Source: Liolophura sinensis
Taxonomy: Eukaryota > Mollusca > Polyplacophora > Chitonida > Chitonidae
Length of the DNA stretch: 64,000 nt
Direction: 5' to 3'
Assembly: GCF_032854445.1 (NCBI RefSeq)
Contig: NC_088299.1
Span: 2,643,001 to 2,707,000 of the forward strand
In this document: in pieces, positions 3,640-58,500 of the stretch
How the letters are laid out: every line of letters starts with the position of its first letter
Position numbering within the stretch: the stretch's first letter is position 1
The notes under the pieces: model-generated
Told to the model about the DNA's origin: nothing
The model's input: the letters and a program-made list of their open reading frames with translations, nothing else
The model's database searches: none
Translations under genes and position numbers: made by a program

Positions 3640-3965
3640 CCCGCTTTGGGGGCGGTAGATCCAGTGTCAATCCTTGGTCGGGTCACACTTAAGACCTTAA
3701 AAGAGGAAACCACGCTTGGCGTTCAGCATGAAGGGGATCTTGCAACGACTGGTTGACCCGTATCAGTGTGATGGCTATGATGGTGCGGCTTACTTGCCTT
3801 CGGTAAGTCGTCTCAGTGAAGCAGCACTGGATGAAAGAGCAGTGGAAATCCGTCCTGCAACAAGGAGGCACATTACATAGACTTTGAGGACTCCTTTGTC
3901 GTCATATGACTGAAAAATTGTTAAGTACGACGCTAAACCCTAAACACTGACTCACTCGCACTCGT
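3640..3965 (+). mobile_element. SINE-B, sense copy, 5' part degraded
   Basis: It matches the SINE-B body seen at 34124-34467. The tRNA-like B-box region (GGTAGATCCAGTGTCAATCC) is followed by the body and a tail with GTCATATGACTGAAAAATTG, ending in a CACTGACTCACTC run. The A-box part of the head is poorly preserved. Confidence 0.65.
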
Positions 3966-4825
3966 TTGGACTTGTAGCTTCACGTTGGTAAATTTATTCC
4001 GTTCCTGACAATGTGCAGTGGTTTTTCAAGGTCAGATTTGCCCATAAATTTGAAAGCCAGTGTGGGACTAACAGATTCTTTACCGAATGGTGTGAAGAAA
4101 CAGCCAGATGTGGATGTAAAAGGTGGATGATATAAACAAATATATCAGTTTCCTGGAGTGTAATATTATGATACGTGGTACTTTGATGAGCAATGACTGG
4201 CTCATTCAAGTAAATAGTTCGTCACTCTGCAGCTTGCATTCTGCTCTTGCTGGAGTGGCTTTGGCGTAAGGTCGAGGTTTGTCGGGTACGTGGCAAAAGG
4301 CGGTGATTTGCGTATGTACTCCATGCACTTGAGTTTCATCTGTGCACGTCGATTCCATCTGTGCACTTTGGTTCCTCCGCTTACCTCTGCTGCATGTCGC
4401 ATAATATGGAGGAAAAACGTTCATTGTCAATCCTAACTGATTGGGAGGTTAAATGAACTTGGAACTGCGAAAGAGTTAGCTGATAATGACCATGGTCATT
4501 TTGGTCTAATTGTTTTTATTAACCCGCTAATAACCTGGTGTCATAAAAAAAGACTTGGGGATCACGACCGTAAGCATTTGTGAATTCGTGAAATTTGATT
4601 AACGAAATCTATCATAGGAAATTGTAGTTTAAAGCCATTTTGACTCACCAAGAAGAACGGTGAGAAACTTTTTTTTTCTACTTTTATATGTTGAGCCACA
4701 CGATAATATCTATATTTGACCTAAGAGATAAAAACCAATCGTTTCATGGATCCTTTAATTATGAATACTTTCTGTAGACACCATGCCTTATCCAGCCCTC
4801 TCTACCCGCGGCCTTACATGCACAG

Positions 4826-5400
4826 TGCACATAACGAGCCGGTAAGACTTTCACATCAGGAATGCACAGAGCACCAATAATGTATGTATGCATGTTTGTA
4901 TACTTGGGGTTTAACGTCGTACTTAATTTTTCAGTCATATGACGACGAGTCCTCAGGCGTGTGTACATATATTGTGTCTTCTTGTGGCAGGGCTAAAGTG
5001 TTGCCGCCACTGAAATATCATGCCGAAGTCATCAGACGGGACACCCCAAGAGTTACATGATACTGACACAGGGCCAACTGGTCATGTTTCCTAGCTCTAA
5101 CCTCTAAGTGCTGAGCGCCAAGCGAGGCAGCTGCAAATACCGTTTTTAAAGTATTTGGTACGACCCGACCCTGGTTTGATCGTGGTGTATCCCGACTTCG
5201 AGGCAGTACGTATAATAAGCCGGTAAGACTTTCACACCAGGAATGTATACAGTACATTTAAAAAAAACAAAACACGGTGAAACACTGACATCAGGAAAGC
5301 ACATTGTAAACATAATGAGCCGATAAGACTTTCACCTCATAAATGTACACAGTACACATAATGAGCGGGCAAGAGGATCACCTCTGGACATCCATGCTCG
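4826..5400. repeat. Interspersed 45-bp repeat reaching into the lectin-gene exon
   Basis: Copies of a unit containing ATAATGAGCCGGTAAGACTT and then TCACATCAGGAATG start near 4828, 5209 and 5311. A diverged copy near 5358 (ATAATGAGCGGGCAAGAGGA) overlaps the 3' end of the PAN-like exon. On the minus strand each unit carries a GTGAAAGT-type donor-like word, so the exon boundary sequence itself appears to be repeated downstream. Confidence 0.5.
4885..5200 (-). mobile_element. SINE-C, antisense copy
   Basis: On the plus strand the shared tail comes first (TTGGGGTTTAACGTCGTAC), then the body word TCTTCTTGTGGCAGGG, then a degraded tRNA-like head near 5160-5185 (GACCCTGGTTTGATCG). It lies downstream of the lectin-like gene. 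Confidence 0.6.
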
Positions 5401-15526: not shown

Positions 15527-18500
15527 CTGTAAAGGTAAACAAAAAACAACTCATATTTCAGCACAGTTAGTAAGACCAAAAAAACACTGGAACCATTTGA
15601 CTGGTTGTAATTAAACATTAACATGACTGCTCTTTGGTGACGGAGAAAATCTAGTTAGAATTTAGCCGGGTGTTGACGTGCTCCGGAAATTTTCACTTTT
15701 CTGACAGCGCTGGAAATAGAGGAAAAACATCAAGAGCTGGATTTGAACATACAAGTTCACTGGTTAAAGGCCTGACGGTTGTTGTGAGCCAGTGGTTCAA
15801 GTTAGCGACACACACCTACACCAACTTTGGTAAAATCCTGCAAAATGCAGTTTCTTCACAAGAACCCTCATCACAGAATTTTGAAGATCTTCATCGTTCC
15901 TTCAGGATCAATACTGTAATGCTGTAAAGTATACTAAGTGCTCAGCAAACAGCGTTTGGTTTTACAAATCCTAAACGTTAATATATGTATACATGTACTT
16001 GTCTGATGTTTAACCAATATCTTCATAATAATTTTAGCTTTACTACAAACTCCTACCTGTTGAGTGGCTTCTGTTATAGAAATGACAGGTGACATTCCAC
16101 AAGTCAGGGATGTCAGCATGTATCCATCCACGCCGATATAACACAGGAAACGTCCTAGCTATAACAGTAAACAGAAACATACAGACCTTTCCTTAACACA
16201 GTCACTGATGACTTAAAACAGAATGAATGAATATATGCCAGTGTTTCACGGCGTACTTAACAATTTTTCAGTCACATGACGATGAGGAATCATTAGGTGT
16301 GGGCACATATATACTGTGTCTTCTTGTGGCAGGGAGAGTCCATACTGCCAAAGTGCTGCCACCTCTGAAGTATCATTGCGAAGACACCAGACATGAAACC
16401 CGAACCAGTCACATTATACTGACCCAGGGCCAGGGTCATTTTTCCATGCTCTAACCTCTCAGTGCTAAGCACCAAACGAGGCAGCAACAAGTAATATTTT
16501 CAAACTTCTCCACATCTCTAAATATTAAGCAACCGAAGCGGTCTGACTCAAGAAAAAGGGGTGAAGAACCAGAGAAAACTACCCAACTGCCGCATAATTT
16601 TGTTGTTTTTTGTACTTACTGCTAAATCCAGAACATTTTTCGGTAAACAACCAAAGAGGAAATCTCATGTCTGCTGAGTTGCCAGCATGCCTTTGTCAGG
16701 CCTTTGTAAAACATTGAGATGATGCCGTGAATAATCTCAATGCAAAAAAAAAAAAAACCAAAAAAAAAAAAAAAACCAAAGTCTTCATCAATGCTCCTCC
16801 AATTTACAATCTGTAAAAGCAAATGGCTGAAAAAAAAAACATTCTTCTCAGGTTAAAACAGATTGACTGATTGACTGGTCTTTAATAAGCATGGATCACT
16901 TATATGATGGCCATCAGGATTATGGTTGGAGGAAACTGAAGTGCACAGAATAAACCATCGCCTGATACCAGTACCTGACAGACCTTTGATTTAAAACCAC
17001 AACTAAAACACCAAGAGCTGGATCGAACACATGGGTTTAAAAACCTCAACAGGTGAATTGTCACTGATAGGCCTTGATAACTGTAACATTCAAAGTTAAG
17101 GAGCCATTGTATTTTGAAACAAAGTTGACCACTGACCAGAGCATCAGACAAGATGGACCTGGCAACAACATCAGGCTTAAATAGTCCAGCAGTCTCTGAG
17201 ATCAGCCTTGTCTCTTCTGGCTGAAAAACAGAACGATGACAAAACTGTATCAGTCAGTTTGACAAATGAATGAATGATTAATGCTTAAAGTCATATTGGC
17301 AATATTTCAGCTATATTGTGGCGAAGTTTGACAACTGAACATCATAGTGAGTTAGTCACCTGTGACTTGCTGTGCACACATGCCCCTAAGCATGAAACTT
17401 AGAACTGGTAGCAAGCTTACCAAAGAGCTTACCTGTATGAGACACATGGATGCAAAACTTCAGCTCAGTGCATAAAGAACGGAAATTGTGAATTTGGTAA
17501 TTTACAGCAATTAATATGCTCACAGAACTCACATGGAACATCTCCCATGAGCCATTGTGTTTTATATACACGTAAAACTTCAGGTCAATACATACAATAT
17601 AATAAGATACCAACACTAATATTTTGTTTAACAGTGATTCTAATACACAATACAGGAATTCAGTAATTTATGGCATTCACTATGAATGAACCCAATCAAC
17701 GATGGAATATTGTGCTATTCTGCTCTACGTGTGCGCAAATCCTGAGCTCAATACATGCAGTATTTTCTGAGCTAAAAGGTACACAGAGTAAATAACCCTC
17801 ACTGATCAAATCTGCTATGTTTGTATGCTTGGCCCCGCAGATCACGAAAGCGATCCCAGACTTCAGTCAAAATTTCAAACCACTTTTAAAATTGTTATTT
17901 CTCATGTCATCATATTGCTTGGCGATGTAAATGATGGGAAAGTTATGGTACAACACATTTCAGCTAAAATAACACAAAAAAACATGCCAAATTTGACAAT
18001 AAAAATTTTGACTATCACTGATTCATTACCCCGGGGCCAAGGGTTTATTGCATCCATAGTTCATTTATTTAATTACCAATTTAAACCTTAAATAACGCTA
18101 CTCAGGGACATATCATCCAAAACAAGGTGGCCAGGTTTGTGAGTGGAAAAAAACACTGGGCAGACAGCCAGAGATCTCACAGGGCATATGTGCGTAAAGA
18201 CAGCCCAAAAAGACAAAATACTGTGCTTCACCTTAATATATCTGGCTTGTAAAAATGCACATAAAGGCCTTAAAGTGATATTTTTGATGCCAGTGCTTAA
18301 GCTTTTCTGATAAGAAATTAATCAAACTTCACAAAAACCTTTAAATGGTCCAATAAGGTGGATGAATCAATCAGAACCAAGTAAAATGTGCCACTTGAAA
18401 CAAGCTAATCTTTAGGTGAAATACAACAATGAATGTTTAATCATGAAAACAATCATTAAGAGGTATTAATGATGAAATAACAAAGTATGGTATTAAGGCT

Positions 18501-30719: not shown

Positions 30720-31700
30720 AGTGGATAGTTGTATTGTGTGAACAGCATTCATATGTATTGTGTGAGCAGTGGACAGCTGTATTGTGAACCGCAGATGGCT
30801 GTATTGTGTAAGCAGTGGAACAGCAGAGTTGTGCTGTGCGAGCAGCGGACAGCTGTATTGTGAACAGCAGAGTTGTGCTGTGCGAGCAGCAGATAGCTGT
30901 ATTGTGTGAGCAGCAGATAGCTGTATTGTGTGAGCAGCAGACAGCTGTATTGTGAACAGCAGAGTTGTGCTCTGCGAGCATCAGATAGCTGTATTGTGTG
31001 AGCAGTGGACAGCTGTATTGCGAGCATCAGATAGTTGTATTGTGTGAGCAGCAGATAGCTATATTGTGTGAGCAGCAGACAGCTGTATTGTGAACAGCAG
31101 AGTTGTGCTCTGCGAGCAGCATACAGCTGTATTGCGTACAGCAAAGTTGTGCTGTGCAAGCAGCAGATAGCTGCTTTGTGAACAGTGAAGTTGTGCTGTG
31201 TGAGCAGTGGACAGTAGTATTGTGAACAGCAGATAGCTGTATTGTGTGAGCAGTGGACAGCTGTATTGTGAACCGCAGATAGTTGTATTGTGTGAGCAGC
31301 AGACAGCTGTATTGTGAACAGCAGAGTTGTGCTCTGCGAGCAGCAGATAGCTGTATTGTGTGAGCAGCAGACAGCTGTATTGTGAACAGCAGATAGTTGT
31401 ATTGTGTGAGCAGCAGATAGCTGTATTGTGCAAGCAGCAGACAGCTGTATTGTGAACAGCAGAGTTGTGCTGTGCGAGCAGCAGATAGCTGTATTGTGCG
31501 AGCAGCAGACAGCTGTATTGTGAACAGCAGAGTTGTGCTCTGCGAGCAGCATACAGCTGTATTGTGTACAGCAAAGTTGTGCTGCGCAAGCAGCAGATAG
31601 CTGTTTCGTGAACAGTGAAGTTGTGCTGTGTGAGCAGTGGACAGTAGTATTGTGAACAGCAGACAGCTGTATTGCAAACACTCCAGCTGTATTGTATGAG
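30720..31700. repeat. 22-24-bp minisatellite with 430-bp higher-order period
   Basis: Units such as GTATTGTGTGAGCAGCAGAT repeat for about 1 kb. A segment of at least 140 bases starting AGCAGCAGACAGCTG at 31071 recurs at 31501 with only a few changes, giving a 430-bp higher-order repeat. Three minus-strand frames stay open here because of the repeat. The array resumes after a SINE-B insertion, at 32046-32220. Confidence 0.93.
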
Positions 31701-31717
31701 CAGCAGATAGTTGTACT

Positions 31718-32045
31718 GAGTGAGTGAGTGAGCGAATGCCTGGGATTTAACATAGTATTTAACAATTTTTCAGTCATATGATGATGACGGAGTCCTTAGA
31801 GTACATGTATGTGTAATGTGCCTCTTTTTTTTCCACTGCTCTTTTATCTAGTGCTGCTTCGCTTAGACAACTTACCGAAGGCTAGTAAGCGGCCTTGCCC
31901 AAGCCATTATACTGTTATAGGTCAACCAATTGTTGCACCTTAATCTCCTTAATGGTAAATGCCAAGTGAGGAAGTCACAACTTCCTCTTTTTAAGTCTTA
32001 AGTGTGACCCGACCCAGGATTGACCCTGGATCTACTGCTCTTGAA
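31718..32045 (-). mobile_element. SINE-B inserted inside the minisatellite
   Basis: GAGTGAGTGAG then TTTAACAATTTTTCAGTC, followed by the SINE-B body down to GACCCTGGATCTACTGCTC. The minisatellite unit GTGAGCAGCATACATCTG continues right after it, so the array was split by the insertion. Confidence 0.75.
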
Positions 32046-33453: not shown

Positions 33454-34766
33454 CTACAACAAGCAAGCGGAAGACTACTTTACCTCGTCTCCTATAACTG
33501 CTGGCACAGATTCATACTGAAATAAAACAGTTTGGGAAAAAGAACAGACACTGCCATGAGACACTGTTTAGCAGCCTCTAAAATGAAAAATATATGCAAA
33601 TGCAGTGTGGGGTATTTTAAACCAAAGTTATTTATTCGATTCATGTTTTATGCCATGCTCGCTTACATTTCATTTATACTAGGGCGGCAAATATTCTGGT
33701 GGAAGAAAACCGGGCAGAGCCTGCAAGAAACCATGTGCAGGTTGTTGGCAAACCTTTCCATGTAGGACAAGAAGAAAAAATCCCATGTTTTACCAGCACA
33801 AAATTAAGTTAACGGGTTGGGACTCAGATCCTGACAAAATTACTAACAACATGAATGATATTCAGGTATCTCAGACAGAATCATCATTTAAATTAGATAA
33901 TAATTAATTATTTACTTGAATGGTGTGTTACTTCACTTATACAACAGTGGCCAGCATGATGGTGGGAGAAAGGCAAAGCCCAGGGGATACCCACTTCTAT
34001 TAGCAGACCTTCCCACATACGACTGGAATGGAAGCCAGCACGAGTGAACTTGAACTCACAGCGACCCCATTGGTGAGGGCCTTTAATTGTGCTTTGCTAA
34101 GGCGTTAATCACTTGGTCATGGAGTGAGTGAGTGAGTGCTTGGGGTTTAACGTCGTACTCAACAATTTTTCAGTCATATGACGACAAAGGAATCCTTAGG
34201 GTGCATGTACGCGTCATGTGCCTCCTTGTTGCAGGACGGATTTCCACCGCTCTCTTATTTAGTGCTGCTTCACTGAGACGACTTACCAAGTAAGCCGCCC
34301 CGCCCTAGCCATTACACTGATACGGGTCAACCAGTCTTTGCACTATCCCCTTCATGCTGAAGTTACAACTTCCTCTTTTAAAGTCTTAGGTGTGACTTGA
34401 TCAAGGATTGATCCTGGATCTACCGGTCCCGAAGCCGACGCTCTACCAACTATGCTATCCGGGCCGGTCACTTGGTCATGGAGGCCCCTTGAATTATATA
34501 ATGATCTCAAATGTATACATGAGACACATATGTTGTATTTTTTCACAGGAAATCTTACATCTATCTCGGAATCCTTCAGCTTCTGTTTCTTCTCTTTCAC
34601 TTTCATTTCAAACACTTGTTCCATTTCAGCTTCCATCTTCTTCATTTTAGCCTCGTGTTCTTTCTTCTCTTCTTGCATCTGTGTTAGAGGATCTCTGCAG
34701 ATTGTCAGAAAAATTGATCAGTAATTGACATTTCATTAATACCATTCCATTTTAAAGAAAGCTTTT

Positions 34767-34801
<35 letters not shown>

Positions 34802-37800
34802 ACACCGCTAGACCAAATGTATACATGCATCAATACAGTATGCAATGAAGTTAAAAAAGAGCATACCTTCTCATTTTTGTCACGTGGCATAACCAACATA
34901 CCACAGTTTAAAGTAAGAATAAATTGAGAAAAATACAAAGCACTGTCATGTTATCAATTTTAACCAATCAGACATGAGTTATTTCTATGACCCAAGCAAG
35001 CAGCTGTTTTGGCTGAATAGTTCTGCCTTTAAGTGATGTGAAAGTGGGGCATGGGTGATGCTATATTGTGGGTTTGGCAAGGTCTATGGATACAGGCATT
35101 CGTCTGCTCTGCACGAAACAAAAGTTTTCTCGAACACCAGTTGTAATGTGTTAATGTAAACAACAGGTCGAATAAATCACAGCATGATCATGTGATCATT
35201 ACAGATGTCACCTTTCTATTGTGTATTGTGATCGTGCACTTACTTGGAGAGGGAGCCAGCCTTGACTTTGCCTTCCACATTGACAGGTGCCAGTTTACTG
35301 TAGCGGTAATTCTCGTAATGAACATTGTTTGTCACATCTTTCAAATCCTGCATGTGGGTTCTGCCAACAAAAATATATTTATTTATTTTAATTGAACATG
35401 CTTTTCCAGGAGTATATCTTTCTATTTATTTATTTTTATTTGATTGGTATTTTACGCCGTACCCAAGAGTATTTCACTTATACGCCGGTGGCCAGCATTA
35501 TGGTGGAAGGAAACCAGGCAGAGCCCGGGGGAAACCCACCACCATCCGCAGGTTGCTGGCAGACCTTCCCACGTACGGCCGGAGAGGAAGCCAGCATGAG
35601 CTAGGTTTGAACTCACAGCGACCGCATTGGTGAGAGACTCCTGGGTCATTACGCCGCGCTAGGGCGCTAACCAACTGAGAACAAAAATATAAACCGAGAC
35701 CTCTTATTATCTGCATTAACACACCAGATGACCAAACATATAAAAGATATATTCAAAAGGTCCAAAAAGGCTTCCAAACTTTTGGGTGGACAATCTGATC
35801 AAGCTGTATTAAAACAATTAAACTTGTAGATAGATGGTTTACCAACAAAAAGTTTTTATAAAAATTTCTTTCATTAACAGGCTTGAAAGCTCTTAGACAG
35901 CTTCATTTTGATTTGCGTTTTATAAAATTTCTTTATGCATTATCAAAATGTCATCTATGTGGTTTGGGATCAGAGCCTTCCAATTTTCTCTCTACTCGTT
36001 GCCCCGCTTGTCGAGATTATCAGAAGAGGAAACGACATGTACATGTAATTAAAGCTTGGAAAAAGCCTTTTCAGTGTGAGGATCCCTTGTTACATGAAGG
36101 TTTTGTCAGCTATCTGACAAAGGTCATTCACCTGTGAGCAGGTCTCTTCACTCACCTTATTAACATGTTCCTCAAAGCTATGAAGTCATTATGTTCCAAA
36201 TTTTCCACTGAAAGACAGATAGAGGGATGCGTAATTATATGATATCTCGTGTGACATAAGCAAAGGTAAATATAACTTATAAAGCACAGTTGCAAAGTGT
36301 ACTAAATTTGAAACTTGTACTTTCAATAAATGTTTTCAAAAAGAAATTAATCCACGCAGAGGCTGAAAATCCAGCTCATCAACACTGATGTCACATATTC
36401 TTGCTTGCTTTAATGTCCAAGGTTGTTAATTTACTTGTAAACTAAAGAAAAAAAAAATCTTAGCTGTCATTGTTTAGAACCAGTTGTTTCCAGTGTGGAC
36501 CATGGAGAAAAGTAAAACTTTCTGATCACTGACAAAATAAAATGAAAAACAATGATCTTTTATGTAAAGGCACTTTGGGGAAAAGGGTGATGATATACTG
36601 ATTTAACACAATATTGCAGAATTGTGCTTCAGCTGTCAATCTGATTGCAGCTCACCTTCCACTACCCCCCAGGGGTATTGTCTACCTCGCACCCGCTTGC
36701 CACCACTGTCTACAATTGTATTGCTGCCCACCACTGCAAATGGTACTCTATCCTGTAACATAGAAATAATGTCAAATAAACTTATCATGCACTTGGTTTC
36801 ATACTTGTATGTTTGACTCAGTTACTCACTTTCATGTTCACAAAATACGCCAATTTTAAAATGTCAACTGTCTGTGAATTGAAGTACGAATCCCCAGCAC
36901 ATAAACATGGAAAGCAACTGAATGTTGTATGATATATCATGTTAGGCTTACTGCAGTCTATATCAGCCAATATGTAACCAAAAAGTCTTGTCATGTTGTT
37001 GAAAATCATAGCTCGCAGGATTTCAAAATTTTGACTTAAGTCTCCAAATTGCGTTTTGAATCACCTCAAGAACCAAGCCAGGGTGATTTCTAACTCCTAG
37101 TTTTGAAGATCCTTAGGCATGTAACACATCATTATGTTGATAACAGAAGTCAGCTGATGATGACAGAAGAAATGTTCACAACCAGATATAAACTTTGTAC
37201 CACTGAATTAGAATCTTCAACAATAAATCAATACTTAAAGGATTCATTTATTCTATTGGATTGGTGTTTTATGATGTACTCAAGAATACTTCACTTATAC
37301 GACGGTGGTCAGCATTATGGTGGGAGGAAAATGAGCAGAGTCCAGGGGAAACCCACAAGAGATGACCCAATACTGCGCAATGCAGTGAAGTAACAACAGA
37401 TCCAGGAATGTCAAAAAAAAAAAAAACCCAAAACATGCATGTCACAAACCTTAAGTTTCTTCTGATGTTTGTTTTCATCTTCATCATCACAATCTGGGAA
37501 TTCATAAATTTTAATTTTGTGCTGCGCAATCTCATTTAATATCTGGGGAAAAAAAAAAGAAGAAAAAAAAAAATTCACATCAATAGATAGATTAAGGCCA
37601 GGACTGTGCGTTTGTTTCAGATAATGAACTAATGGGTTCTATTCTACTTTCGCACTGTTTAAATAAAATCGTCTTACTGAAAAGCACAGGTGGATGACAC
37701 ACTCTACCACTCCCCAACCCCAATAAGATTTCACCCTTTAAGAAGAGGTTGGCTTATACTCAGTAACAGAATGGTGGGGGATAGAACTAAAGATAATCTG

Positions 37801-40800
37801 TCAATGGATAGTTCTGATTTTACCCACACACCAGATAAACAAGCACACGGTGAGAGGATCAAGTAAAAACAAAGAAAGCTCTCACTGATGAATAAAAAGT
37901 CTTTGTTTCGTTGCTGTTTAACATCTTAATAATAAATAAATAAGCAAATATGACAAATGACCTGAAATTTTTTTTCGAGGCAAATAATACCAGAAAATAA
38001 TACTTTTGGTGCTGAAACTTTAGATTTTTCCAGCTGGATATCACCCTACTTTCCAAACAAAACTTGAACGACCTTTCTATGATCAACAGAACTCCCAGAA
38101 TCAGGCAAAATGGGCTTAGTCAAGGTCACCGTAGTCAAGGTGAAAGTTCAGGTCATTTACCACAGGTCAAGGACGCATGATCTTATCAGTGAGATGCTGG
38201 GTCAGCCAGTAAAGAGAGAACTTTCTTTCCTGATAGCAGGTATGAATAAATAATGGGCTGGAAGAAGGAAGCTTACAGTTTTCTTGAATTCTCTACATTC
38301 GTCTGGTGTCATGGTGTCGGATTTAGCGATGAGCGGGATAATGTTGACCTTGTCATGTAAGCGCTTCATGAACTCCACGTCCAGGGGTTTTAACCTGAAG
38401 CAACACACAGCATACACAATTATCATATGGAATACAGATTTATCATGTAGAATATACAATTATCATGTCAAATATACCATAATTATGTGGGATATACTAT
38501 TACCATGTGAAAACCAGAATTACCATGTGAAAGACAGAATTACCATGTGAAATATACAATTGTCATGACAAATTTACCATTAATATGTGGGATATACTAT
38601 TATCACATGGCATATAGTATTATCATGTGGCCTATAGAAAGTCAATTTTTCGTGGCAATGTACATTCAGGGGGCATAACTATGCATTACATGTAGAAGCT
38701 TAGGCACCATCAGGGTAATTCCCCTTGCATAAGGATAACCTATCTGTGTGACCCAGAACAGTGCTTCTTTGTGTATGAAGTGAGCTGTTGACAGATAGGA
38801 TCAGAATGTGAGCATCAGCTTACAGCTGTTCAGATTAGCCTCTCCACAAACAGCTGATTGTCTGACTGGTCATAGACGAGTCTCCCACAGCTAGATAGGT
38901 TGTTTGATGGGACAGCCTGGAATGTTTCTCAGGCAAATAAACAGTCACATTTTGCATGGCTAGAGCAGAATATAGTATATCCTCAAATATGCAATGAAAC
39001 ACACCACATTGGGTCTCTGTGTTAACGTGTATAAACCAAGACAGTACAGCCATTTAAAATGCCTCTGTGCTGTGTATCTCAGATCACTAATAACATAACA
39101 ATGACATGATGTGTTTCTTTAGGACGTCACTAATGTTTAAATCATGATGGAATGTAACACAAGGCCTAAAGGCCGCTGTAACATAAACAGGCTGTCCTAC
39201 AGATAGCACGCAACCCAACAACTTTCAACAAAAATTACTATAGGTGCAACTTACTGAGTCAAAGGTTATCAAGTATCAACATGAATGACCCCTTGATATC
39301 ATTTCGACCTTCATATAAACAAAAATAATTAAAAAATAGAAAACTGAAAAATTCTGAAGAGATTATTTTTATATTTAAAGTGATATAGCTTCTTTAACCA
39401 GTTCATTCCTCAGCATTACCATAAGAATAAAATTTCAAATGTATTAGTAACTTGGAAAAAATTCTTAATCCTTTATTTTCCTCTCCCATAAATGAAACAG
39501 TTACAACTTTGCTTGTTTTCCATAAGCTACAAGCAAATGCTATATCTGAATTTGTACATGCATAGCTGTTAATTCATCATTTCAATCTTTTAATTTAAGG
39601 TACAAACATAAAGTGAATGTCAGATGACCATCAAACACTGTATAAAAAAAAAACAAAAAAAAAACAACAATCTGATTTGTGTTTTTTAAAAACTTTTTGG
39701 GTGATGTCAAATGCATTTTGAGCCCTGGAATCTAGAATGGCCTATTCTGATGATACTGTGCCAAACATAGTTTATCTACTGAATACACATAACCTGCGGG
39801 AGGTCTGCATTCTACACTCTCCAAATTGATCCTGAAACAAACTAATCCACGCAAAAAGTATGGAAGTGACATTCCTGATACCCACAGAGTAGACCACTGC
39901 TGTATCATTAATTTTAGCATCATTTTACTCGGTTGGAAAAATTAAAAAAAAAATATTATCATGGGGTTCAAAAAGATCATTCATAAATCATTAATATTAA
40001 AGCATTTTAATCGCCTTGAAAAATCCCCCCCCCAAAAAAAAAGAGCATTAACATGGTGTTTTACATTAGAGTGCAATTCTCGCCATACTGAGGTCAGGTC
40101 TAACCGATACTCATGTAACAGGAAGAAACTAGGTCTTTGTTGACAAATAATTAACTAACTGCACTTCCCAGTATAAAATAACTGTTTTCTATCAGGATTG
40201 TCTGAACTCCTGTCAGACAACGTCAGCATTACAAGCTCTGATCAGTTAACTGCCCGGGAGAGTTCAGCTCATTTGTATATTAGTCACCAAATCTTATCAC
40301 CAATCAGTAATTGTCAATATAAATGTACAATGCGTGAGTAAGGCATACAGGGAGACGGCAGTTTGACACATGTACATCAGATGTTCCTTCTAGTGTAAGC
40401 TTAATATCAGGTGCCAGGATCATCAAAGCGATCTTAGATGCAAGACAAAACTTTAATCATTAAACCTTTCCATTATTTTAGTTGAAATTTGTTTTACAAC
40501 TTACCTAGAAACAACAATTTTAAAGTGATTTCAAATTTTGACTTAGGTCTAAGATTGCTTTGAGATCCCGAGCCTTAGGTCACCTAGGGAAATGTGGGGC
40601 AAAATTTCGTTGAAGCGACAATGGTTAAAATGAAGTGACCGAGTCATTTTTAGCTTCCACAGCAGTTCTGTACATTAATTTGCATATGTCAGTCAAATTG
40701 TTGACACCCTATCTTTTAACATGGGTCGGTTAATCAAATTGTTTACACCTTACACTATCTTTTAACATGGGTCTCTTAGTCAAATTGTTGATATCCTATC

Positions 40801-43800: not shown

Positions 43801-46800
43801 GATTTATTTATTTATTTCATTGGTGTTTTACGACGTACTCAAGAACATTTCACTTATACGATGGCGGCCAGCATTATGGTGGGTGGAAACCGGGCAGAGC
43901 CCAGGGGAAACCCACGACTATCCGCAGGTTGCTGGCAGACCATAGAGGTTTTGAACTATCAACCTAAGAAAGCTAAAGTGCAATGAATACTGAGAGAGAA
44001 GAGAGACTTTTTCTATGAAAATAAGCTTAAATTTCTTCTACTAGTTGACTCCTATTAGAAAAAGTTTTAGTTTCAGCGATTCTGGCCAAATAGTATATTC
44101 TATGAAACTCCAGAATTCCCTTAAAATCAGCTAATCAGTTGAAAATTCTCATCCGTGTGTATTGGTGATGATACCTTGACAGTTTTCTGTATCCTATGTG
44201 AAGGGCCGGGATATTCAGCACTGTACAGATCTGTGAGGAACAAAGAGTTGATCAGCGTAGATTTCCCTAAACCAGATTCACCTGAAACACAGAAAGATGA
44301 AGACCATTATTTATTTATTTGATTGTTGTTTTACGTCGTATATGGCCAGAATCAAACCCACAACCGTCCGCAGGTTGCTGACAGATCTTCCCATGTCAGC
44401 GGGTAAGGTGCTTTCAGTGAGTTAGTGGTAAGTGGAGAAACATGACATATTAATTTGAACAGAATTTAAACTTTCACTAGTCAACAACTTCCCATGAACT
44501 GGTCATCACTGACATTCACTCGTGTCAGTGGTTATATTATTTCACCCTGTGGACAAAACCATTTTATCAGACGGGAATGGTGAGGGCACCACAAGCCAGT
44601 CGGATTTTACACGTACTACAAGCAGCTACTTATAAAAGTAAACACTGTAAACATTAATCATCAAAAGAGAAAAAAGGTCTGGCCTTGAAAGCCATGTGAT
44701 GCTCAGTGTGTATGACATATATGTTTTATTGTAGCTTTCTGATCCACCCCGATCTATTTTCATCACCGTTCATGCTGTGGGCCGCCATGTACATGTAGCC
44801 TTTGTGCGATGCGAGGATTCTGCTGGACATGTATGATGGTGGACTATACTGCAATACAACCAACTTCATGTGTAAATTAATAAGCTTTGCCAAAGTTACA
44901 GCAAATAAAAAATCTGCTGTAGATGGCGTTACCAGCCACATGTTCACATAACCAAATTGCTAGAGCGCTTGTGTCTCTTTTCGCATTGTAGCGAAACCGA
45001 ACAATTGGTTATTCAAGGCTTAAAACCTGTAACCGATTTTTTAGTTATGTCAACTACCCAAATCTCATGGCCTGGTGCCCTTATATAAAACACAGTGATG
45101 CCCTCAAACCAGACAGCGGTGCCCTCAATTGGGACAGAAATGCCCTCAACCAAGGAAGAACAGGTTCCTTTCAATGAGCTTACAGTACCAATATGTAGGC
45201 ACACTAAAACATAAAAGATAATACATGTGACGAACACTGTCAAGTCTACAGAAAAACTAGGCGAGATGAAGGTTTCAATACAGACTGAAACACTAGAGAA
45301 AATTAGAGTATCAATGAAGCTGTATACTGTAAAGCATATGGGCGGATTATTTAGTGTGTTTATCAAGTCTTGCCAGCTTCTCCCCCAGGTGGAAACTCTG
45401 GCTTGTCTCTACACATTAATACTGGCCTAGTCCTGTTAACTCTGACCTCACTCACTATACTACACTACTCACAGTTGGCTTTAATCAAAAAAACGCGATA
45501 ATTTATCCGCCTGTAATTCTATAAACAGTCTCTCTGGCTGTGGCAGCTGGGACAGGAATTCTCCCATGTATACAGCTCTGACAGATATTGATATAAACTT
45601 AGTTCCCACTATCAAAGAATGTACATGTACGCCCCTCAAAGCATGCCTGAACAGTGGCGGACAAAACTTGCACTGTTAAACAGCCAGCCAGTGCATAGTA
45701 AAATACATGCATTCCAGACACATTCTTCCAAGGAATAGAAATTATCCGATACTGTGTAATTTTAAACCCCATCAAATCAAAAGTCTAATGGATCTATGAC
45801 TTATGTTCTTAAAATAAAAACCCAACTTACAAGCACTGAATTTCAAACCAGACAAAAAATATTTCTTTTGGAAGAAGAACTCATAGATGTACATGTATAC
45901 ATGTACATAGATATTATACAAATGCTTGCCTGGCATCCAAATGCTTGCCTGGCATCCAAATGCCTACCTAACATCCAAATGCCTGCCTGGCATAAAAATG
46001 CCTGCCTAACATCCTAATGCTTGCCTGGCATCTAAATGTCTAACTAACGCATAAAAATGCCTGTCTCACATCCAAATGCCTGCCTGGCATCCAAATGCCT
46101 GCCTAACATCCTAATGCTTGCCTGGCATGCAAATGCTTGCCTGGCATCCAAATGCTTGCCTGGCATCCAAATGCTTGCCCGGCATACAAATGCTTGCCCG
46201 GCATACAAATACCTGCCCGGCATACAAATGCTTCCTAGCATACAAATGCCTGCCCGGCATACAAATGCTTCCTAGCATACAAATGCCTGCCTGGCATACA
46301 AATGCTTCCTAGCATACAAATACTTGCCTGGCAAACAAATGCTTGCCTGGCATCCAAATGCTTGCCCGGCATCCAAATGCTTCCTAGCATACAAATACCT
46401 GCCCGGCATACAAATACTTGCCTGGCAAACAAATGCCTGCCCGGCATACAAATGCTTCCTAGCATACAAATGCTTCCTAGCATACAAATACCTGATCATA
46501 ATAGATCATAATTTTCTTAGCATCAATACATGCTGTGGGAAATACTCATATACAAGTAAATCATTACTTAGCTCTGGGTTATAATATGAACATTTCTCAA
46601 CATGAACGAAATAAATACAGGTGTCTAATTTTTATTGCCACAGGGTGCCACTATATCTCCCATTTTGTTTGTTTGGTCTAGCTCTGTACACTTTTAGGTC
46701 CCTCATTTCCTGTTATCAGAATGAGTTTGATATTTTTATAGCATGTGAAAAGCTGGTCCTGTGGATGGTACCACACAGCTCATTTCAGCTGTCCATTTGG

Positions 46801-48719: not shown

Positions 48720-51700
48720 TTGAATTACGGTAAATAACCTAAAAATTTGGTTCATAAAAGTACATTTTAGAGACAAATAAATGTCATAAAATACTACTTT
48801 TCCTGCTAAAGTTTATATTTTTTCCTAAGGTATCACCTTACCTTTGAAACAAACAAACCTGTACTAAGATCAACAGACATCTCAGAATTAACCGAAGTTT
48901 GCAACTTTGTCGTGGCTACCACTTTGTCATTTACAACATAAATATGATTTATCAATGGGGTAGAAGTAATCTGAAATCTAGATATTATTTTTTAACATTA
49001 TGTAATATACCCTGTACCTGTGAAGATTTTTTTTTTTTTTTTTTTTTTTTGATTGGTGTTTTACGCCGTACTCAAGAATATTTCACTTATACGACGGCGG
49101 CCAGCATTATGGTGGGTGGAAACCGGGCAGAGCCCGGAGGAAACCCACGACCATCCGCAGGTTGCTGGCAGACCTTCTCACGTACGGCCGGAGAGGAAGC
49201 CAGCATGAGCTGGACTTGAACTCACAGCGACCGCATTGGTGAGAGACTCCTGGGTCATTACGCTGCGCTAGTGCTTTAACCGACTGAGCCACGGAGGCCC
49301 CTACCTGTGAAGAAAAACATAAACTGTGAATGTGTAGCCTGATGAAAGGGCTAGTGTACTTTATCTTCCTTGCATACAGTTTGCATTACCCGATTAATTT
49401 TCATTGGATGTGGAGATAAAATCATAAATCTTTAAATGATGTTATCTTTGAAATAGATATACACATAAAATATAGTGTCTGGATTGCCTTGTCCCTGACA
49501 ATCTTGTTTTCTTCTTTCCCTCTTTCTTCCTTTCAGCGCTTTTATTTATTGTTCATCATACATGTACATGCAAAGTAACACAAGCCAGATACTTGTAGAA
49601 TCTACACTGTATACTACACACTGTTGTGACAATGCCAGCATACTGCTTCCTGGGTTCAATAGTATGCTTTAAACCCACCAGACTCTCGTTATGCACTCCC
49701 ATTGTGGGATGTGACCAGGTGAAAAGAGGTCGACACTTGTCAGGTGTGGCCAGGTACTCAAAGCTTACCTGTCCTTAATCCACAGAGTTAGGATCACAGC
49801 AGCTACCTGGAGAGGAATGCCCTGAGTAAACCATGGTCAGTCACGCCTGGTACACACCAATGTGTCTCTATTGCTTAAACTTCAAACAGCCTGGGCCTTT
49901 ACAAACCCCATACACCTGATTCCTACATGTACATTTATGAACTACTGTTGTACTGTATACTTAGCCTGCTTTTCTTGGACAGTTTAATTTTTGTATGTGA
50001 CAACCAGTGCTGGACCTTAATGTTAAGAGGCCCTAGTAACATCAGATTTGGTCCACCCCTCAAACATAGAATTTAAAATAAAAGACATATTACCCACTGT
50101 ACACATAGACTTCAGTTTTCTGCATATACAAATTTTACACGAAAAGTAAATAGATAGCAAAATTGAGTAAGTTTTCTATCTGGAGTACACATACTTTAGA
50201 ACTGAGAGCATAAATTATCTTAAATTTTAAAGCTATCATGGTTTTAAAAAATGGAAAAATCACTGTAATTTTGTATAGTCATAGAGGAGGGAGGGAGCCT
50301 TTTGCCACTTTTATCCGGTTGTGGGGACAAGTGATTGAAAGAAGAAGCTTTTCTACATGTAACACAACTCTAAAGCGTACATAATATGACAGGTAATCAG
50401 ACATGTGAATGTACAGGTGTATTTATTTATCTCACCATTATGGTTATAAGAGATTCCTGCTGAGTATAGTGAAACATGTTATTAATTATTGCTCATACAC
50501 AGCTTGCCAAAGAGTGATTTTTTTATTGACAATTACCAAATGGTCATTTTTTTTTTATACTAACAAAAGGTCATGAGTGAATTTCTTGAGTAACATTATC
50601 TGTGAAATACAATGAGGCTCAGTAAAAAAACAAGACAAACAAAAATGTGCTCCATATATCATCTCACTGAGGAAAAGAAAGGGGTTCAGACTGAGTCGCT
50701 AGTGTAGACACCTTGACCACAAAAAATCATCCAGACCAGAGATTTTTCAGTTAAAAGACACATTCTGTTATCTCAGGTCCACCTCACTGCCTTACTTCAA
50801 ACTGAATGGTATAATGTAGGCAATGCAAAAGCTGATATCTTCATGGATGTTTAGTAAACAAGACATCATACATCACAGAGGCAGATAGACAAATACCAGG
50901 TCAGGTAGAGAAAAACATCTGTCATACATGAGGCCGCCTGGTGTAGTGCCCCATTGTTATTGTATACCTATTTAAACCTCAGCTCTCTAACTCAGCTGGC
51001 TACATTCACTCACAGTGTCAAGATCAACTTGAGCTTAGGCACAGGGTAGCGTGGTTGGATTTGTCAGTCAATATGCGCTCACGTGCTCCTTATCTACACC
51101 TACATAATGCAAAACCATATACACTTATATTATACATGACAACTGTTCTCCTATACCATGAATGCGAACTAGTTGTGAAACACAGTGTTTATGTTCTAGT
51201 TTGTTGTCATAGGGAACCATGAAGTGTAACACTCCCGATGAAATTTGATATAGTGTTTAACACAGGCAATGTGACATGTACAGGCCTCCTATAACAGGAT
51301 GAGTAATTCATGAGGAAGCTGATACACAGCAGGGGAAAGAGTTAGATGACCTAAAAAGTGCATTTTTAGAGGAAATGTCATGACATTATCTTTGGTGCTG
51401 AAACATGCTTTTCCAGGAGTATATCTTTCTATTTATTTATTTATTTGATTGCTGTTCTATGCCATACTCAAGAATATTTCACTTATACGAGGGCAGCCAA
51501 CATTATGGTGGGAGGAAACCGGACAGAGCCCAGGGGAAACCCGCCACCATGTGCAGGCTGCTGGCAGACCTTCCCACGTAAGGCTGGAGAGGTAGCCAGC
51601 ATGAGCTGGACTTGAACTCACAGCGAATGCATTGGTGAGAGGCTTCTGGGTCATTACCCTGTGGCAGCACGCTAATCAACTAAGCCACGGAGGCCCCTGA

Positions 51701-54700
51701 TACGTTTCTACCTTCCAGATAAACCTTCAGACACATGAAGTTCTAAGACTAATTACACTCTCATAGGCAGATAAAACGTGCAAACAGGCACAGGTGAAAT
51801 GTTAGCATTGTTAACCGCATCTCCAGAAACTGATAACTGTTTTGTCTCTGGAAATACTAGAGTAGCTCGCAAGTATTGTGATCAGCAGGTGTGTTAACAA
51901 GTATATATCCAGCCCACCTTAGGACTATAACACTTGTGGTCTATGGTACACCTGATGAGCTAAAGGTTACAGCTGACACACTCTCACCTCTATCATAATC
52001 CAGGCGGGATCTTACACTTGACTTCTCAGCATTAACAACATTCCTATCCACAAGATCAATGTGCACCTAAGTGTCATGTAATGAATGTGTAAATAAATTT
52101 TTTAGAGCACTCGGTATCTGTCCTACTTTCACCAGAAGAGACAGCTACAAGAATAATTGTTGTTATATGAAAGTTGTAAACAAGATGAAAATCTATTAAT
52201 AAAGCATCTTACATCAATCAACCAGAGAGGCAATTATGTATACCTGTATTCTTGATTTCTTCTTTGCTTATTTAATGGTGTTTTATGTTCTCAAAAATAT
52301 TTCACTTCTATGACGGCAGCCAGCATTACTGTGGGAGAAACTGGGCAGGTTCTGTGGGATCTTGATTTCTGATTTCACAAAGCCAACAGATGTCAATATG
52401 TCGGCTGTATGAAAATGAATACCTATCAGACCAAACTTTTCTTTCTGATTTTATGTATCATTTTTGTAAGTCCTTGATGAAATTGATTTTAAACATGAAA
52501 TGTACAGGTCTCCACAGATTATTGCCCAAAAAGACAGATTTTTTTCATTTTTCTTTATTTGACTGGTGTTTTATGCTCAAGAATATTTCACTTATACAAC
52601 CGCAGCCAACACTATGGTGGGAAAAAAACGGGCAGAACCTGTGGTAATCCCCAACCATCCGCAAATTCCTGGCAGACCTTCCCATGTACAGTCAGAGAGG
52701 AAGCCAGCATGAGCTGGGCTTGAACTCAAAGCAACCACATTGGCGAGAGGCTCCTGTGTCACAGAGCTGAGCCATCATGCTCACCACCTTGTCCATGGAA
52801 GCCCCTGGCTGGTATTAGAAGTGTGGCACATAACTGTGTGGTGCCGAACTGCTTGTTCATAACTGATACACAGCTCTTCAGAATTTCCTTGCAAATAAAG
52901 GTACCTGTAGAATCAATCACACAGCCTGCCTCCTCAACCACAGGCTGGTTTGCCTGTAGCAGAGGATCCATTAAGCGCTCTCAGCAAGGGACAGAAAAAG
53001 TATTGTAACAATTCAGAAATGCACATCCTGTGTGTATGTTTGGAACATCTCTCTTAAGGCTGAAGCCCTATAGGAAGTGGACGCTTAGTGCTGACAGGGT
53101 ATGCTAGAGAGTAGAGTATGTGTATTAGAGATTGAGACGCCAATTCCTTAGTACCAGATGTGACCCACATACATGTTCAAATGTACAGCACTGTCAGGCC
53201 AGACTGCCATTCAGTATACTGTATATCTAACCTTAACAGCACATATCCCATGAATCACATTCCGTTACTGGGCTTCATACAGCTTACAGAATCCAGAATG
53301 GTTAACGATTCTTTCCCTCAAATATGTAGACATCTGGAGTCACTTTTGGAAAACTTTCAAAAGTCTCAAGTTAGATTTCTCAGTCAGCCTAATGGTTGTT
53401 TTGCCGATGTACAGCTAGTTGTTAAGCCAGAGGAAAGGGAATATTCATAAATATGTGTATGAATGTAAGCTAGAGTATTGCATGATAGTTTAATTAATGC
53501 AGTATTTATAATATCTACATTACCTAGATGTAAGCAACTTCCCTATAGTCTCTACAGCACATTACACTTTTCTCCTATCTAATACACATTAACTAACACA
53601 TTATGTGACATATCTGCACTGCCATGTATTTTCACCTCTCTGTTGCGTAGCTAACGTTTGAGAAACGGCTGATGCATGAAGAGATCCACATGCGGTTGTG
53701 TTGAAACAGGCTTTAAATAATTATTTAATAATTTAAATAATTACGACAAAAGGAGAGTTTTGTAAAAGAATAACAGTGTCTTGGATAGTAACTGTTTTAG
53801 AGACGCTTGGAAAAATAAAAATAGTCAATGGGTTTATAACTGCATACCAATGACGATTATTTAAATCGTAGTTTTTAAATACGCAGTGGCCAGTTCTCGT
53901 AGCAGCTGTTTACAATTAGATTTCCCATGATTTAGTTCACAACTTCCACCTAAGAGGTTGACATATTTCTCCATCAGGTGGCCTAACCTTCCACAGATGA
54001 CGTAACAGGTGTACTGTGCCATGGAGGCAAGCTATAGGGAAGTTACATACTTCTAGGGACTGGACTTCTGACATATATATATGGGTACTGAATGTTTATA
54101 ACCATATTCACTACATGCAAGCCTGTGACCGAATGTATACAAGACAGGGGGTTCAGCAGAAGGCAGTTACAAAGGCTGAAGAAAAATTGCACGTAGACAC
54201 CAACATTTCATTTAATTCTTTGTCCGATAACTTTCTACTTTTTCGGGGTAGCCATCTGTTCAAAGAGATAATGCAAGCCCTGCAATGTGTGTGCAGGATA
54301 CAAACACTTCCGGAAAACAGCTCATGTGCTAACAAATCCAGCTTATCAACATGAGTTTGCTTCTAAATGACAGCTAGGACTGGCTGGTGGACACATGTAA
54401 AATAATGAAAACTATTTCATGAAAACAGCACTCATAATCTCATACACGAAAGCAATATATTGTTTGACAATCTCTTCCAATTGGTTTCGTAATCAAAAGC
54501 AGATGAACCATTTTAACTGACTTTATGAACGGTACAAAACCAGTCTCAACATTATTCATCCATGTGCATGACAACATTCCCACTGAATCAAAATTGGCTA
54601 AGGACTGATAACGCGATACATGAACGGATGTAACTTCACAGAGGCAAGTATATTTTACCTAATTCCTTAACTATATCACCTTAACTATATTTTACTATCA

Positions 54701-56820: not shown

Positions 56821-57354
56821 CAACACACACACTTTCACATACATACATATACATGCAGGTATTTTGTACATGCGTGACCTAGATATCCCCATGTACATGT
56901 ATGAAGTCACGTTACCCCATTCCAAAACCTGGACATGACAATGAAAACAGAGCTGGTCCACAACACAAGCCTAGAAGTTCTCTCCACTGTTAGCACACCT
57001 CAAACCCATCTCCATACATGCAGTCACTTTAAAAATAAACAGGTGAAAATATTTAGGTCATAACAAAAAAAAAAAAAAAAAGAAAAACACAACAAATTGG
57101 CACAGTCTGTTTACGAAATGCCTGAGGGCTGCAAAATACCGTCTTCATATGCAGGGGTAGTGTAAAGAAAAGGTAATTTAAACCAAGAAGCTCATACAGG
57201 ACGAATGCAGCAGAACCTGCGCCAAGCACTGTCAGATGAGGGCTAAACCTGCACCTGTAGTTTACAGTAAAGTCGGCTAATCCGATGTAAGGAGGCAATT
57301 CATACCCTGCAGATGGTGTAATAGCCTGACGTGTACTAATAGATATATACCCTG

Positions 57355-58500
57355 TCTGCTGAAGGCCCAGGCATCCAGACCTAACCAATCAGCACGGGCC
57401 TCCAGACCTAACCAATCAGCACGGGCCTCCAGGCCTAACCAATCAGCACGGGCCTCCAGACCTAACCAATCAGTATGGGCCTCCAGACCTAACCAATCAG
57501 CATGGTCCTCCACACCTAACCAATCGGCACGGGTCTCCAGACCTAGCCAATCAGCCCGGGCCTCCAGACCTAACCTGTCAGCCTAGGCCTCCTGACCTAA
57601 CCAGTCAGCCTAGGCCTCCTGACCTAACCAGTCAGCCCAGGCATCCAGACCTAACCAGTCAGTCTAGGCCTCCTGACCTAGCCAGTTAGCCCAGGTATCC
57701 AGGCCTACATGTACCTACATGTAGTCAGCCCAGGCATCCAGATCTAACCAGTCAATCCTAGCCTCCAGACCCAGTCAGCCCGGGCCTCTAGACCTAACCA
57801 GCTTCCAGACCTAAACAGTTAGCCTAGGCTTCCAGACCTAACCACTCAGCCCGCGCCTCCAGGCCTCCAGACCTAAGCACTCAATCCTCTTCTCTAGACC
57901 TACATGTAACCAGTCATTCCTCTCCTCCAGACCTAACTAGTGAGGCCAGGCTTCCAGATCTAACCAGTAAATCCAGGTTCCCAGGCCTAACCAGTGAGTC
58001 CTAGCCACCAGACCTAACCAGTGAGCCCTAGCCTCCATACCAGGCATCCAGCCTTAACTAGTGAGCCCTTGCCTCCAGACATAATCAGTGAGCCCTTGCC
58101 TCAAGTCCTAACCAGTAAGCCCTAGCCTCCAAACCTAAAGTGAGCCCTGGCCAAATACATAACCACTGAGCTCCGGCCTCCAGATCAAACCAGTGATCTC
58201 TGGCCTCCAGATTCAACCAGTGATCTCTGGTCTCTCCTAACCAGTCAGCCTGGCTTCAAAACATAACCTAAACTAATCAGCCCTAGCTTTCAGACCAAAC
58301 CAGTCCATCATAGCCTTCAAAGCTAACTAGTCAGACCAGGCCTCAATTCCTAGTCTTCGAACCAAACCAGTCAGAAAAGGCATCCAGACCTACCCAGTCA
58401 GACCTACATTTTAGACCAAACCAGTCAACCCTGGCCTCCACTCCTAACAAGTCAGTCCTAGCCTTCAGGCCAAACCAGTCAGAAAAGGCCTTCAGACCAA
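57355..58500. repeat. 27-bp minisatellite, about 40 copies, graded decay
   Basis: CCTAACCAATCAGCACGGGC then CTCCAGA, with a period of 27 (57380, 57407 and onward). Units at 57380-57560 are nearly identical; those beyond 58000 are strongly diverged. A minus-strand Ala-Asp-Trp-Leu repeat frame here is a by-product of the period being a multiple of three. Confidence 0.95.

Follow-up and report, generated by a model that had tools for sequence, protein, structure and literature searches.

Beyond its own tail, a SINE-A inserted near 35 kb of the analysed stretch of Liolophura sinensis DNA carries 28 nt copied from the flank of another SINE-A located 16 kb away, followed by a second tail, and we consider it about an even chance (a probability of roughly 0.5) that the 28 nt represent a templated repair patch, for which synthesis would have run from the homologous 51-kb tail into the flank of that SINE. 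The stretch analysed, hereafter the window, comprises the 64,000 nt of C5:2643001-2707000 in the 609-Mb assembly, and the features of both loci are collected in Table 1. Read in sense, the 35-kb insert consists of the truncated SINE, an inner tail CCAATCAAATAAAAATAAATAAATA, the 28 nt GAAAGATATACTCCTGGAAAAGCATGTT, the outer tail CAATTAAAATAAATAAATA and the target site duplication, the perfect 12-bp repeats of which bracket the entire insert. Together with adjoining tail letters the 28 nt make up an exact repeat of 41 nt (35395-35435, equal to 51402-51442). A sequence-only reading of the window had reported the identity of the 28 nt to the 3′ flank of the 51-kb SINE, the new A-rich tail beyond them and the perfect 12-bp duplication around the whole, and all of these observations were confirmed in the sequence. 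Features by which a 3′ transduction is recognized are present at both loci: at 35 kb the element, unique sequence and a new tail all lie within one target duplication, while at 51 kb the unique 28 nt abut the tail of a SINE of the same family.

Table 1. Features of the 35-kb and 51-kb SINE-A loci and of the adjoining septin gene (positions within the window).
Feature	Position	Strand	Basis or remark
Septin exon stretch next to the 35-kb insertion	35279..35362	-	Pfam PF00735 match
Target site duplication, left copy, 12 bp (AACAAAAATATA)	35366..35377	.	sequence; just upstream of the splice acceptor of the septin exon
Outer (second) tail, sense CAATTAAAATAAATAAATA	35378..35394	-	last two letters common with the duplication; resembles SINE 3′ end
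28-nt captured segment	35395..35422	-	identical to 51402-51429
SINE-A body and inner tail, 5′-truncated by ~14 nt	35423..35679	-	tRNA-like head with B box GTTCAAACC
Target site duplication, right copy, 12 bp	35680..35691	.	sequence comparison; perfect match to left copy
Stretch of another exon of the septin gene	38262..38444	-	Pfam PF00735 match
Left part of family T TIR element, source context of the 28 nt	51348..51429	+	genome matches and fetched copies
Donor of the 28 nt	51402..51429	-	sense end falls within TGTTT (+25 to +29), the first Pol III-type terminator beyond the tail
Target site duplication of 51-kb SINE, tail side (ATATCTTTCTA)	51421..51431	.	by eye; script saw 6 letters
SINE-A at 51 kb, apparently an old copy, 5/19 consensus CpGs left	51430..51699	-	SINE match and CpG count
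Target site duplication of 51-kb SINE, head side (ATACGTTTCTA)	51700..51710	.	by eye, 9/11
Probable right-hand part of this family T element (diverged)	51713..51783	+	45/71 identical; 32/2000 shuffles as good

SINE-A displays the features of a tRNA-derived SINE, namely Pol III boxes, a tail and short target duplications. A B box is found in both the 35-kb and the 51-kb SINEs, and the A-box-like motif of the 51-kb copy is gone at 35 kb by truncation. The outer tail at 35 kb is of the AAAT type and similar to the SINE's own 3′ end CAATCAAATAAATAAATA, and its string CCAATTAAAATAAATAAATA recurs without mismatch at 8 other genomic places as compared to 2 for the control. SINE-A copies end either in pure A runs or in AAAT repeats; judged by eye, tails of the former kind are commoner in copies L081-L120 than in copies L021-L060, the later sample having been obtained with other queries and at lower ranks. 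A young SINE nested in an older fragment was rejected as an explanation of the 35-kb insert, as no duplication flanks the SINE alone.

Two stretches of the window match the septin domain, one of them adjacent to the 35-kb insertion, and no septin match was obtained in four other pieces tested against Pfam. The insertion is located just upstream of a splice acceptor (GGCAG/AACC on the minus strand, read by eye), the duplication restores that stretch, and the branch point may now be situated in or near the insert. Introns of a single septin gene on the minus strand seem to contain both the 35-kb and the 51-kb locus, both SINEs having the orientation of the gene; an exon near 54.9 kb, an open-frame reading with no Pfam match, would make the 51-kb SINE intronic. 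Long tandem repeats at 30749-31795, 45950-46500 and 57280-57690 give repetitive open frames in several phases.

A search of the whole assembly, in which stretches reading N could hide further copies, placed a 27-mer of the 28 nt (up to 3 mismatches) at two positions, the 51-kb and 35-kb loci of the window, with no other copy of the flank in the assembly, and its reversed control at none. The objection that many SINE-A copies might carry the same 28 nt, which would make them a subfamily tail, is excluded by this count. Within the window, a scan for exact repeats of 20 nt or more, separated by a minimum of 1.5 kb and with simple sequence and SINE-internal pairs excluded, listed 13 pairs, comprising the 35/51-kb pair, one SINE end and 11 others that seem to belong to one other dispersed family. 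The latter family, seemingly represented at approximately 3676-4990, 16252-16335, 31759-32014 and 34139-34336, shares exact stretches of 20-32 nt in both orientations. An assembly error or a chance identity is extremely improbable as an explanation of the 35/51-kb pair: the structure is known from a single assembly, but an exact repeat of 41 nt with tail and flank in register is very unlikely to arise by chance, and the structure at 35 kb is complete and its duplication perfect.

The assignment of a 51-to-35-kb direction of copying is sound. Thirty-nine other scored places in the genome match the left flank of the 51-kb SINE (51348-51430) at 76-82% (40 of 110 candidates were scored, all 40 matched family T, and one was the window itself), and 20 fetched copies of family T have a common body of approximately 215 bp with inverted ends TACCCTAAATGACC...GGTCATTTAGGGTA; these 39 other matches rule out a coincidental resemblance to family T on the left side. 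To the right of the SINE the resemblance to T is colinear, with identity at 45 of 71 aligned letters, a score equalled or exceeded in 32 of 2000 shuffles and for 8 of 400 window pieces, and a genome search with this right flank returned a match to itself only; the presence of T on this side is moderately supported by the alignment. The earlier claim that the SINE interrupted an element of family T is thus well founded on the left and less so on the right. The 28 nt represent T sequence with the 51-kb copy's own changes, including the tail-side copy of the (now decayed) duplication of the 51-kb SINE, and therefore the 51-kb locus was assigned as the donor and the 35-kb insert as the acceptor, which bears out the direction that the sequence-only reading had deduced from the family T context.

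The relationship between the two SINE bodies was assessed against 44 other copies, 40 of which were fetched as best matches to the 35-kb or the 51-kb SINE, hence not a random sample, and 4 of which were taken out of more than 20 SINE-like matches in the window; a larger set of 84 other copies was formed by adding 20 of 40 other best matches to the SINE-A copy at 11 kb and 20 further matches. In the first set, 39 of 245 body columns differ between the two SINEs, the differences extending to the letter that immediately precedes CAATC, as compared to 0 differences in the 28 nt (Fisher p 0.019, or p 0.052 without CpG columns, for which the body count is 25/209). None of 23 rare states of the 51-kb SINE recurs in the 35-kb copy when the larger set is used, and 54 of the 85 copies compared likewise share none; at the cut-off of the first set the count is 1 of 18, which is ordinary. 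Once four subfamily sites and one shared state are removed, the 51-kb copy has 25 private changes and the 35-kb copy 12 (p 0.047), or 14 and 9 without CpG columns (p 0.40). Moreover, the 35-kb copy keeps 14 of 19 consensus CpGs as compared to 5 of 19 in the 51-kb copy (p 0.0086), while the 84 other copies keep 10 to 19 of 19, being good matches and so biased to well-kept copies. The 35-kb SINE looks younger because of this difference in CpG retention, and the decay of CpGs suggests that the 51-kb copy is much older. At the diagnostic pair of positions 39/42 the 35-kb copy reads G,T and the 51-kb copy A,C, and among the 84 other copies A,C was found in 34, G,T in 30, G,C in 15 and other combinations in five. 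The AU test gave p 0.337 for a clade of the 35-kb and 51-kb SINEs with 46 copies, the constrained tree being 6.35 log units worse, and p 0.508 with 86 copies (82 of them different), the constrained tree being 0.51 log units better; the tree was poorly resolved.

These results bear directly on plain 3′ transduction, according to which a read-through transcript of the 51-kb SINE (or of a paralogous locus since lost) was retrotransposed shortly after that SINE had inserted, with the bodies diverging later by mutation or with the 51-kb body being overwritten by gene conversion. This explanation with the 51-kb SINE as parent is disfavoured by the sequence comparison, and we regard it as quite improbable. 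The AU tests, which do not reject the clade, and the end of the copied piece at a Pol III-type terminator are both consistent with it. However, it demands equal ages of two copies that differ in CpGs kept and in private changes, as well as 28 unchanged nt next to a body with 39 changes in 245 columns; the assembly search with the 27-mer, allowing up to 3 mismatches, supplied no second copy of the flank, and the distance of 16 kb would have to be luck, a coincidence for an RNA that acts in trans in a genome of 609 Mb. Of the transduction proposed by the sequence-only reading, the origin of the 28 nt at the 51-kb locus was upheld, whereas the view of the 35-kb body as a retrotransposed copy of the 51-kb SINE was not, given the 39 differing columns, the absence of shared rare states (0/23) and the unequal CpG retention.

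The structure at 35 kb is rare. In a survey of 86 SINE-A copies (80 fetched and 6 in the window, the 35-kb copy included) a duplication was found directly after the tail in 68 and no duplication in 10, among them the 51-kb copy with its decayed repeats; the other 8 were labelled otherwise by the script, and by eye a filler and second tail were present only in the 35-kb copy of those 8. None of the 85 other copies surveyed exhibits a filler and second tail; for 40 of the 86 the survey reached approximately 50 nt past the match, so that a longer patch could be missed there or in the 10 copies without duplication. Genome-wide, a strict double-tail pattern gave 2 matches (control 0), representing the 35-kb insert and a truncated tandem, a looser pattern gave 195 matches as compared to 21 for the controls, and 3 matches were obtained with a pattern requiring TT before the tail, all of which are SINE 3′ ends or plain tail. 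Among approximately 100 looser-pattern matches listed, many look like minisatellites or tandem SINE 3′ ends.

Twenty loci were fetched, consisting of 19 of the looser-pattern matches listed and the second strict-pattern match, and these include tandem SINE ends, minisatellites, local tandem duplications of a SINE end with flank, nested insertions and one dimer. At least 4 of the 20 are local tandem duplications, a SINE 3′ end with some flank being duplicated at L064, L065 and L070 and a motif without a SINE hit being repeated at L069, while L071 and L076 are longer arrays. Four loci (L062, L063, L066 and L067) resemble the 35-kb insert in having a tail, an unlike filler and the 3′ end of a SINE, and the fillers of L066 and L067 have one genomic occurrence each; no convincing enclosing duplication was seen at these four loci (16 of the 20 loci tested, read by eye). 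L077, and probably L078, is explained by a young SINE that inserted into an older fragment. At L074 (G000:C3:5391858-5392703) a whole SINE-A and a second tail with a short SINE 3′ fragment are surrounded by one 11-bp duplication, and this locus likely represents a template-jump dimer. Arrays resembling minisatellites with the SINE 3′ end motif were also observed at G000:C6:12163213-12163690 and C2:27300483-27301032.

The dimer at L074 with its enclosing 11-bp duplication, and the single 12-bp duplication that encloses all parts of the 35-kb insert, favour the main rival explanation, namely template switching in reverse transcription, onto a Pol III read-through RNA of the 51-kb SINE and then back to SINE-A RNA, although we consider this doubtful. 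Target-primed synthesis at 35 kb would start on a SINE-A RNA, which would provide the outer tail, would jump to the 3′ end of a 51-kb read-through RNA stopped at TGTTT, where the 28 nt and the tail would be copied, and would then switch via tail homology to another SINE-A RNA for the body, this second switch being needed in an RNA route because the SINE bodies differ. The strong point of the RNA route is where the copied piece stops: at +28, within TGTTT (+25 to +29), the first terminator, and one T short of its end. Neither SINE body contains a Pol III-type terminator, and with shuffled flanks an end within the final 3 nt of a terminator arose in 0.022 of 20,000 trials, an agreement noticed after the fact. 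The terminator rule was taken from PMC8466645, which reports that TGTTT stopped transcription in 20% of cases for B2-type SINEs and that the last nucleotide of a Pol III terminator is often not transcribed. Double template switches by the LINE machinery have likewise been published (PMC2104539). Nevertheless, this explanation must invoke three templates with two switches between them, a single clean dimer was present among the 16 loci (of 20 fetched) tested for duplication, and the gene of the acceptor RNA is 16 kb from the target, for which the usual model gives no cause unless a nearby nascent RNA was captured. It is unlikely, in our estimation, that a complex carrying out reverse transcription within the transcribed septin gene picked up the 3′ end of a nearby nascent SINE transcript, made by Pol III 16 kb away and ending at a weak terminator, before going back to its own SINE RNA; if true, this would constitute a local, RNA-level capture of the flank of a neighbouring SINE, that is, a terminator-defined SINE 3′ transduction by double template switch. 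Should an RNA route be correct, read-through to the first Pol III terminator would be a simple rule for SINE transductions and would offer a way to find active source copies.

By the preferred reading, a templated repair patch, the 35-kb insert would first have been an ordinary 5′-truncated SINE-A and would have been patched later. A break or stalled fork would have arisen in the tail of the 35-kb SINE, the broken tail would have paired with the homologous tail of the 51-kb SINE, synthesis would have left that SINE and entered 28 nt of its flank before being released, and the new end would have been joined to the remaining 35-kb tail, a process that would belong to synthesis-dependent strand annealing (SDSA) or to microhomology-type repair with templated insertion. 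Repair would account for a tail and flank that are 51-kb-like beside a body that is not, and for a donor and an acceptor that are 16 kb apart, on the same chromosome, in the same orientation and apparently in one septin gene. The single other genomic copy of the 28 nt is 16 kb away on the same chromosome, and an interval of ±16 kb amounts by plain arithmetic to 5e-5 of 609 Mb, roughly the chance for an RNA landing at random; this figure overstates the case, as one window can show nearby pairs only. The absence of special kinship between the bodies, the unequal CpG retention and the rarity of the structure also speak for repair. In addition, the stretch of identity starts at the homologous SINE tails, such that the entry junction is within the tail homology of the two SINEs, and stops abruptly, the repair route consists of one event, and the small tandem duplications of a SINE 3′ end with flank at L064, L065 and L070 are also found in this genome.

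Repair captures of this type have been surveyed by Pace et al. 2009 (PMC2671141), who described 1,136 human transposable elements interrupted by sequence with one other genomic copy, 824 of them with a donor at 5 kb or less, captures beyond 5 kb being set aside. All 39 captures from within 5 kb with inspected breakpoints looked like imperfect break repair, and 17 of 29 inspected captures from other chromosomes had marks of retrotransposition. The distance at hand counts against repair because captures beyond 5 kb were set aside by these authors: 16 kb exceeds the 5 kb that they trusted, and 28 nt is below their floor of 50 bp. Also against repair are the far junction GTT/CAATT, which has no clear microhomology (CA is common with the donor only if one T was lost), and the duplication around the whole structure, an enclosure that retrotransposition gives at once and that repair does not need. 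The end of the copied piece one T short of the terminator TGTTT, the AU tests, which do not reject a clade of the two SINEs, and the difference in private changes without CpG columns, which is not significant (14 versus 9, p 0.40), tell against it as well.

Templated repair and template switching both have published precedent, and a repair patch would be a known kind of event. A flank and a second tail within a target duplication are readily taken for a 3′ transduction, and the different ages of the bodies suggest that a patch or a chimera can give the same picture, so the ancestry of the body should be checked before a source element is named. In 3′ transduction by LINE-1 and SVA, an element and its tail are followed by the unique flank of another copy, a second tail and the duplication. 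The 35-kb insert has the same order of parts; unlike such a transduction, its body does not resemble a copy of the element beside the source of the flank, and its new tail is AAAT-type and resembles a SINE 3′ end. The openly accessible part of the literature on SINE transduction was found to centre on LINE-1, SVA or retrotransposons generally (in a dog preprint, PMC12458276, the transduction search is for LINE-1), and absence of SINE cases from print is not claimed. The chimeric retroelements of Gogvadze et al. 2007 (PMC2104539), which arise from LINE template switching, are comparable in that pieces of different origin, tripartite combinations included, are joined in one target duplication; here, however, the pieces are two SINE copies and 28 nt of flank as opposed to independent abundant RNAs, and the source of the flank is 16 kb away. 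The captures of Pace et al. 2009 (PMC2671141) are similar in that the short piece interrupting a transposable element has exactly one other genomic copy, which is located close by on that chromosome. That survey concerned vertebrates and pieces of at least 50 bp from less than 5 kb, in contrast to the 28 nt from 16 kb in the present case, in which the donor and the acceptor are copies of one SINE, so that pairing by homology is likely.
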